A model generated the notes under the pieces. That model made no database searches. It had not been told where the DNA came from and saw only the letters and a list, made by a program, of their open reading frames with translations. The position numbers and the translations under genes are program-made. DNA of 32,233 nt from an uncultured Mycoplasmatota bacterium (lineage in GTDB: Bacteria > Bacillota_I > Bacilli_A > RF39 > UBA660): NCBI GenBank assembly GCA_946494015.1, contig CAMMBL010000007.1, forward strand, positions 1 through 32,233, read 5' to 3'. Shown one piece after another: positions 1 to 32,233 of the stretch. The first letter of the stretch is position 1. Each line of letters starts with the position of its first letter.

Positions 1-77
1 AAACAAAATATGGCTACTCCCATAATATAAACTTTTGAAACATCAGTTTTCATTAACTTCTTTATTTTATACTTCAT
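1..77 (-). CDS. N-terminus (partial, runs off the window) of a surface/exported protein paralogous to the 30247-32072 gene
   Basis: Minus-strand ATG at 77-75 translates MKYKIKKLMKTDVSKVYIMGVAIFC, nearly identical to MKYKIKKLMKTDVSKIYIMGVIIFC of the right-end gene; upstream RBS GGATAGGAGTTAAATG. Confidence 0.8.
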   Translation of the reverse strand, partial: MKYKIKKLMKTDVSKVYIMGVAIFC

Positions 78-114
78 TTAACTCCTATCCTTTCTTTATT
101 TTACTACATTAAAA

Positions 115-140
115 AGAACAGAATATATCTATCCTGCTCT
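115..140 (-). terminator. Leader hairpin followed by U-run (attenuator-like), left copy
   Basis: Minus strand AGAGCAGGATA-GATA-TATTCTGTTCT then TTTT; 11-bp stem allowing G-U pairs, between putative promoter and start codon. Confidence 0.55.
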
Positions 141-167
141 TATTTCATAGTAAAAGAAAGGTACTAG

Positions 168-197
168 ATTATGGCTAAATGCCCCCCCCCCAGGTAA
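168..197 (-). promoter_or_regulatory. Candidate promoter with G10 tract in spacer, left copy
   Basis: Minus strand TTACCT-(G10 + 8 nt)-CATAAT, 18-nt spacer; the -35 match is weak. Confidence 0.4.
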
Positions 198-286
198 CTA
201 TTTGTAAACGGGAATCTATCATCTTTCATCTACTCCTTTCTTCTATCTTCTTATAACTTTATGTTAACATATTTTGATATGTTAGT

Positions 287-30246: not shown

Positions 30247-32072
30247 TTATCCTAAAGCAATAGTAAATGGGTTATTCTTTGTGCCATCTCCAGATGTTAT
30301 TATCACGTTAGATTTTAAATTCATGGATGGCTTAATACCGTTCTCAGAAGAATTAGGCTCATATAAAGCTATATCCCCCCATCCGCCTATACATTTATTA
30401 TAAGTAGTATCCTTTGGGGTTAAAATCCAATAATCTACATTTTTTCTTCTTTATCAAACTGTCCTGACATTAATTCTCCATAGCGAAGTAAGCCTATTTT
30501 AGCATTAGTTGTAGTCGAAGTTAAATTACTCATATTAATATCTTTATATTTAGCTAGTTTATATGATGCACCATTTCCTACTGTTCCAAGATACCATGTT
30601 GTACTATCCTCTATCATATCATTATAATTACTATCTACATAACTTGTTAAATAATCTTCATTTAAAAATCTTCCAATCTTAATACTAGTTGAAAACATTA
30701 AAGAACCATATTTTAATTGTAGAAAAGTAGTAGTTCCAGCTTTTAAAGGTTTATCACTAACTATTTTTGTTAAATTTTCTGTTTCATGGCTTACTATTCT
30801 ATATAAGTTGTTTACACCTGTCCCAAATCTTATATACTCACCACTATATCTAGTATTTAATTTTACGCTATTTAAATCAGTATCATTATCTCCACTTAAA
30901 CGATAGGGATCTTCTGCACTTCCATTACCACTTGCTATTTTTACATCTGATCTTAAATTTATAGCTGGACGAACACCTATTTTACCTACTGGGTCAAAGT
31001 AATTTATACTACCATCATCTAACAAATAAAAAACATTTGAAGTATTGTATGGTGTTAAAGTCCACCACCAAAGGCTATTATTTAAATAACCTGTTGAAGA
31101 ACTTGCTTCTTTGTAACTTGTTACATATTCATAATAATTTAATAATCCTACTGCATCCTCTACCATTGTTGTTTGAGCTGGCTTACTTGATGATGTTGTC
31201 TGTGTTGCATTCCATTTAGCATCCATTACAATAAATTTTTCAGGCTCTCTTAAATTTCCTAAAAAGCCATCTACTGTTGTATCATTTAGCCATGATTCCA
31301 TATTACTTCCTTTAAAAGCTGCACCATTAGAATAATTATAATTAATTGAACTTATATTCCACTGGGTCACTAATTTAATTGTCTTAGCACTATTGTTGAT
31401 ACTAACTGCTCTCCATAATTTACCGCTATACCATATATAATTATTGGGATCTGTTCCTGTTATAAAGGTATCTATTCCATCATCATATGTTCCCCCATTA
31501 TTTCCAACATTCTCTATTATGGTATCTGATGCTTTTATTACATATTCAGTAAATAAATGACCATCACTAGGTAGGCTTAAATCATTGTAATCAAGCCCTA
31601 TTTGTACTCCTAAATTAATATTTATACTACTACTGGTTGAATTAACTACTTTTATCTTATATAATTTCTTATCTCCATTACTTCCAGCTTTTGAGAAGAC
31701 TTCTCCTTTTTCTGTTGGAGGAATATCAGTACCTTCTTCTACAATGTATCCAGCATCTACTCCTGAAGGTAAGTCCCCTATATAATAAAAGTTTAATCTA
31801 GCATCTCTAGTATTTGTATTATTTAAATTAATTGTATAAGTAGCATTACTATTTCCTGGTACTGTTATTATATTTGTTTCATTATTATTTACTTTTAATT
31901 CATACTCTAATGTTCCGGTAATAATACTTATCGCTCTATTCTTTTCTTTATTTACTGTAAACATTGCATAGGAAAAATAACTGCCTAATAGTATTAAACA
32001 AAAGATAATTACTCCCATAATATAGATCTTTGATACATCAGTTTTCATTAACTTCTTTATTTTATACTTCAT
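30247..32072 (-). CDS. Surface/exported protein with two tandem similar C-terminal modules; reading frame interrupted at an A6 tract (545-aa ORF 30435-32072, restored length 608 aa)
   Basis: N-terminal TM; module 1 ends WWWTLTPYNTS...GVRPAINLRSDVKIASGNGSAEDPYRL; module 2 ends (other frame) NVDYWILTPKDTTYNK...GIKPSMNLKSNVIITSGDGTKNNPFTIALG*. Confidence 0.8.
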
Positions 32073-32109
32073 TTAACTTCTATCCTTTCTTTATTTTACT
32101 ACACTAAAA

Positions 32110-32135
32110 AGAACAGAATATATCTATCCTGCTCT
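32110..32135 (-). terminator. Leader hairpin followed by U-run (attenuator-like), right copy
   Basis: Same AGAGCAGGATA-GATA-TATTCTGTTCT-TTTT as left copy. Confidence 0.55.
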
Positions 32136-32162
32136 TATTTCATAGTAAAAGAAAGGTACTAG

Positions 32163-32193
32163 ATTATATCTAAATGACCCCCCCCCCAGGTAA
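32163..32193 (-). promoter_or_regulatory. Candidate promoter with G10 tract in spacer, right copy
   Basis: Minus strand TTACCT-(G10 + 9 nt)-TATAAT, 19-nt spacer. Confidence 0.45.
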
Positions 32194-32233
32194 CTATTTG
32201 TAAACGGGTGCTAGTATAATTTTGGTACACCTT

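Follow-up and report, generated by a model that had tools for sequence, protein, structure and literature searches.

Leader-peptide phase variation has been described for the pilus loci pil1 and pil3 of Streptococcus gallolyticus (Danne et al. 2014, PLoS Pathog, PMC3894217). At pil1, GCAGA repeats lie within a leader ORF, and out-of-frame changes lengthen the leader so that it ends in a terminator stem-loop; leaders that do not reach it end 39-49 bp upstream. Ribosome-dependent readthrough was demonstrated there genetically, with expression going up on deletion of the terminator and down on loss of the leader start codon (PMC3894217). In the open-access literature we found such a combined leader-peptide/terminator phase switch described for S. 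gallolyticus only, at these two pilus loci. In pyrBI of E. coli, termination is prevented when translation of the leader carries a ribosome into the terminator hairpin. Slippage in simple repeats within a promoter alters the transcription of surface genes at Bordetella fim (poly-C) and Haemophilus hif (TA), and the variable surface lipoproteins of Mycoplasma are large switchable families of exported proteins in small AT-rich genomes. For the Mycoplasma families, we know of no leader attenuator.

Here we describe a tract of about nine G that precedes dozens of surface-protein genes in uncultured bacteria of the chicken gut. We consider it probable that this tract switches a phase-variable attenuator of transcription, which is made up of a leader reading frame and a terminator.

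The G tract at the ends of the window

The window, by which we mean the whole stretch of 32,233 nucleotides that was analysed, has a GC content of 24%. Runs of at least eight G are confined to two places, 182-191 and 32178-32187, which confirms the copies at both ends reported by the initial annotation. Six G-run matches were found in the window compared with 0.04 in dinucleotide shuffles, far more than chance would give, and the tract is repeated. On the minus strand the right end reads TTACCTGGGGGGGGGGTCATTTAGATATAATC, with TTACCT (32193-32188) before the G10 run (32187-32178) and TATAAT (32168-32163) after it, just as had been noted. The run is located 105 nt upstream of the ATG at 32072 of a 545-codon gene for an exported protein, and the earlier picture of a slippable G tract upstream of such a gene is right in outline.

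The initial annotation took the tract for a promoter spacer that tunes the distance between -35 and -10 elements, and at this one copy TTACCT - 19 nt - TATAAT can indeed be written. However, a consensus promoter scan of 31950-32233 did not report the site, and the genome's other 16 copies have CATAAT, TATAGT or similar in place of TATAAT. Because it is confined to the right copy of the window, a promoter at this position is no shared feature; when the terminator-reaching frame is followed, TATAAT turns out to be made up of leader codons (AGA TAT AAT), and it is unconserved. Instead, 83 of 122 distinct sequences carry a conserved extended -10 motif, TRTGnTAnnnT, upstream of the leader, mostly 39-54 nt before the leader start codon; in shuffles the share is 2.6%. 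The motif is common in AT-rich DNA (22 matches across the window, 19 expected), so that its weight comes from its fixed place before leaders. For the right copy, this promoter would sit past the contig end. A spacer also leaves the conservation of frame and terminator unexplained, and we regard it as highly improbable. A Bordetella fim-type spacer switch was rejected, as the tract does not lie between a conserved -35 and -10. Phase variation, which had been guessed correctly, is very probable; the mechanism proposed for it was wrong, since the tract lies within a leader ORF, with an intrinsic terminator after it (Table 1).

Table 1. Coordinates of the features of the two units in the window
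Feature	Position	Strand	Remarks
G10 tract, right copy	32178..32187	-	predicted leader frame switch; in-frame codons TGG GGG GGG GG(T)
Leader ORF, right copy	32159..32233	-	...VYQNYTSTRLQIVTWGGGHLDII, then stop; 5' end past contig end; contains …RLQIVTW-GGG…
Terminator-reaching (ON) frame 3' of tract	32124..32177	-	SFRYNLVPFFYYEIRAG, then stop; at G10 unjoined to leader start
CCTTTCTTT	32148..32156	-	complementary to leader Shine-Dalgarno (SD) regions; possible SD sequestration, tentative
Intrinsic-terminator hairpin, right copy	32109..32136	-	AAGAGCAGGATA-GATA-TATTCTGTTCTT, 12 pairs, then TTT; from terminator scan
Downstream gene, right copy	30435..32072	-	exported protein: N-terminal membrane segment, beta-sandwich, DUF6273
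Extended -10 promoter motif, left copy	261..271	-	TATGTTAACAT
Leader ORF, left copy	175..222	-	SD AAAGGAG 239-233, ATG at 222: MIDSRLQIVTWGGGI, then stop; predicted OFF
G10 tract, left copy	182..191	-	
Terminator hairpin, left copy	114..141	-	ON-frame stop at 131-129
Second downstream gene, start	1..77	-	MKYKIKKLMKTDVSKVYIMGV...; family shared with the right one; cut by contig end

Distribution of the unit in the genome and the genus

With the surrounding 140 bases as query, 17 tract-bearing copies of the unit were found in the genome (1.23 Mb in 78 contigs). These have in common GTTTACAAATAGTTACC(T)G6-12 followed by a stretch like ATAATCTAGTACCTTTCTTT, while their upstream contexts differ; AAGAGCAGGATAGATATATTCTGTTCTT comes next in the copies whose contig extends far enough. 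Sixteen of the 17 are at or near contig ends, which indicates that the assembly broke at the repeat, and the unit thus accounts for where this draft genome is broken. All genomes used here are draft or metagenome assemblies, in which tract lengths within repeats are prone to mis-assembly, above all at contig ends, as is the case for the window.

Among related genomes, 31 of 60 matched the block query, all within one of the 23 genera sampled. Several of the matching assemblies are assigned to Candidatus Onthousia (Bacilli), and from the shared element and the grouping by genus in the genome search we infer that the window belongs there too. A pattern search recovered the unit in 25 of 35 genomes of the genus, with 27 copies in one genome (G013), 14 in another (G031) and 13 in that of the window; the same pattern written backwards gave no match in these 35 genomes. 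No unit was found outside the genus among 289 genomes from 104 genera sampled from the order. A viral scan returned a single match (L248), a G5 run lacking leader and terminator, which we judged to be chance.

In three pairs of copies (L178 and L177, L244 and L156, L193 and L076), upstream halves of about 100 nt are identical, while the downstream halves have diverged, which suggests reshuffling at the tract.

Leader frame, stop position and terminator

The anatomy of the unit is established from 152 distinct copies. A start codon with an SD sequence opens a leader that has ...LQxVTW ahead of the G tract; beyond the tract it mostly runs on for 15-24 codons, and an intrinsic-terminator hairpin with T's behind it comes next. 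A leader start with an SD sequence is present in 140 of the 152. From the tract onward, the frame that reaches the terminator is open in every copy (152/152), and the other two frames are interrupted by stops in 147 and 151 copies. Because the copies share ancestry, the segments were also clustered at a 60% identity threshold; the frame remained open in 15 of 15 clusters, as against 2/15 and 1/15 for the other frames. Indels in multiples of three were dropped as evidence for coding because the tract length absorbs any non-triplet indel. Longer leaders, in which repeated GKxxRQF-like units (for example YQGKINRQFQGKINRHFSK) precede LQxVTW, occur in L064, L066, L069, L130, L150 and others.

The terminator stem is kept in 141 of the 152 copies, in 38 distinct stem sequences, and at stem position 6 a C-G pair is exchanged for T-A (90 vs. 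47 among the 141). In 139 of these 141 stems, the stop codon of the ON frame falls within the 5' arm of the hairpin, at a depth of 10 nt in 108 copies and of 5 nt in 31, and the leaders ending in RAG-stop, RIE-stop, KE-stop or KRE-stop always have the stop inside the arm. Leaders in this frame end a median of 13 nt inside the hairpin, out-of-frame leaders a median of 31-33 nt short of it. The right copy of the window follows this arrangement: the terminator scan found one hairpin where 0.1 was expected, and the ON-frame stop TAG (32126-32124) is within its 5' arm. With G10, its leader runs into a stop at 32161-32159 instead (phase d=2) and is predicted to be OFF. The unit shares with the pil1 type a leader ORF with a start codon and a ribosome-binding site, a non-triplet repeat within the leader, a terminator in which one frame only ends, and repeat numbers that vary between near-identical loci (see below). 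The hairpins are modest, at about -12 kcal/mol, and only 3 pairs of the window stem are G-C, which counts against a frame switch.

The in-frame product could itself be functional, as a small protein or as an arrest peptide that stalls the ribosome on the hairpin. LQxVTWGG ahead of the tract is well conserved, and the commonest hairpin type comes with an IRAG-stop ending that resembles the IRAGP of SecM. However, the C-terminal residues of the leader vary freely with the type of hairpin (RRIE-stop, LKE-stop, TKRE-stop, VKRIE-stop), and synonymous changes in its 3' part are not in excess, at 53 of 304 changes, which is near the neutral value of 0.18. A SecM-like arrest peptide is disfavoured because the endings vary and constraint at the codon level is absent, and we consider a functional product very unlikely. 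Since the choice of amino acids is unconserved and the synonymous share is about neutral, what has been kept is the frame and the position of the stop rather than the peptide.

A block that is a mere dispersed repeat, or a recombination hot spot, without any regulatory role would fit the many near-identical copies at contig ends as well as the upstream halves common to copies with different downstream halves. Yet units that have diverged between genomes retain the frame, the stop position, the pairing of the stem and the placement close to a gene, and a role in nothing but recombination or dispersal is extremely improbable.

The attenuator that we consider probable would work as follows. An upstream promoter would give rise to a transcript carrying the short leader ORF, the intrinsic terminator and the surface-protein gene, and a slipped-strand change in the G run would shift the reading frame of the leader. 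In one frame out of three, the ribosome would reach the stop within the 5' arm of the hairpin and cover the arm, so that RNA polymerase could proceed (ON). In the other two frames, it would stop about 30 nt short of the hairpin, which would then form and terminate transcription (OFF). That the terminator is active, that the ribosome occludes it and that cells switch reversibly, and with this the step from sequence to function, is what we infer by analogy with pil1.

The SD sequence of the leader can also pair with a conserved TTACTTTCTTTC just before the terminator, over 11-13 bp in most copies compared with mostly 6-8 in shuffles. Swapping the partners between copies costs little among relatives (11.5 to 11.4), and in the species of the window the own partner gives 9.5 vs. 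7.9 for a swapped one. In view of this weak swap test, we propose the pairing only tentatively as a further regulatory layer. Between terminator and gene, five units (L104, L106, L107, L110 and L111) have in common a stretch of about 70 nt (TAAACTGGTTATATAACCAG ... TATAAT), with a similar one in L101 and L131; it may contain a second promoter that bypasses the switch.

Predicted states, downstream genes and known systems

Pure G tracts are 6-13 long, and G9 is the commonest (85 of 134); several tracts are broken up by A. Differences in tract length between near-identical loci are established by four pairs, all of them compared across genomes rather than inside one clone. L178 has G11 (ON) and L148 has G9 (OFF), with flanks identical at 494/500 positions upstream and 1098/1105 downstream. 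L226 and L108 are one G apart (499/500 and 1197/1200), L237 has G11 (OFF) and L157 G9 (ON) (493/500 and 227/230), and L176 has G8 (ON) and L231 G7 (OFF) (481/499 and 1139/1200). With the number of G, the frame of the leader differs too between these near-identical loci.

For the 150 copies listed from the genus, the predicted states are 16 ON, 95 OFF1 and 39 OFF2. The excess of one OFF frame counts against a switch, as free slippage alone would give a more even spread. With G9 predominating and most copies one base off the terminator-reaching frame, the data could point to transcriptional slippage or ribosomal frameshifting in each cell, which would not be heritable and in which a fixed G9 would set a low level of readthrough. 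We find this quite unlikely in light of the near-identical loci that differ in tract length. Returning to the heritable switch, both copies of the window are predicted to be OFF, and in its genome a copy on another contig (C61), ahead of an intact 615-codon gene, is alone predicted to be ON. In four leaders (L114, L121, L095 and L076), a nonsense codon (TGG to TGA, CAA/CAG to TAA/TAG) is present at the tract or ahead of it, and these leaders are apparently locked OFF.

A strongly hydrophobic start was seen in 124 of the 126 downstream ORFs found. When 53 of the downstream proteins were scanned, 19 had DUF6273, 3 had DUF285/PARCEL repeats and a few had leucine-rich repeats. The structure model of the protein in the window has good confidence for a membrane segment, for a beta-sandwich at about 57-160 and for a second domain at about 193-393; its C-terminal part is modelled poorly. 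There is no convincing match to a solved structure for this protein: the fold search returned no match at E<=0.001, and phmmer against the PDB no match. Near the C-terminus (30435-30450, minus strand), the frame of the gene breaks at a short A run, and the remaining 60 or so family-typical residues run on in another frame to about 30247, which would make it a pseudogene, an assembly error or a case of further variation.

Upstream of essC, which encodes the type VII secretion ATPase (TIGR03928), two genomes have a diverged G-tract leader (L202 and L229) whose terminator hairpin is unrelated; with the actual tracts, the frame stops within the hairpin arm and both are predicted to be ON. Downstream of one unit there is a group II intron (RF02005) with a reverse transcriptase (L107:760-979). 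This single intron was discarded as a sign of real terminators because it is downstream of the hairpin and not directly at it.

Up to about 27 independently switchable units per genome could produce combinatorial variation of the surface. It is conceivable, though we would not count on it, that surface variation in Candidatus Onthousia depends mainly on a network of independent attenuators, up to some 27 per genome, that extends across the genus, with an SD-TTACTTTCTTTC self-lock after early termination and with EssC under a like switch. The ON and OFF states can be read from the sequence alone, and existing metagenome reads could therefore measure switching in animals without culture.

How does the unit compare with the systems described so far? 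With the Mycoplasma families, it shares a large set of exported proteins, here predicted to be switchable, in small AT-rich genomes, and 3 of the 53 downstream proteins scanned match the Mycoplasma-type DUF285/PARCEL family. At fim and hif the repeat is part of the promoter, whereas in Candidatus Onthousia it is translated and lies downstream of the promoter. At pyrBI the signal is UTP, which acts through pausing of the polymerase, whereas the input here would be a reading frame set by a mutable tract. With pil1/pil3, the unit shares a slippable repeat in a leader ORF, a frame that decides between ending in or before the terminator, an in-hairpin ending that predicts ON, predicted control of surface structures and OFF as the commoner state. 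In contrast to the GCAGA pentanucleotide, which belongs to two pilus operons in a single species group, it has a mononucleotide G tract, an unrelated repeat unit. There are up to 27 such loci per genome in these uncultured Bacilli, and the genes that follow encode several families of surface proteins as well as EssC. Given that the repeat units differ (G vs. GCAGA), the resemblance to the pil1 leader is presumably convergent, and we predict a separate mononucleotide version of this kind of switch, in use at numerous loci throughout one genus of uncultured bacteria of the gut.
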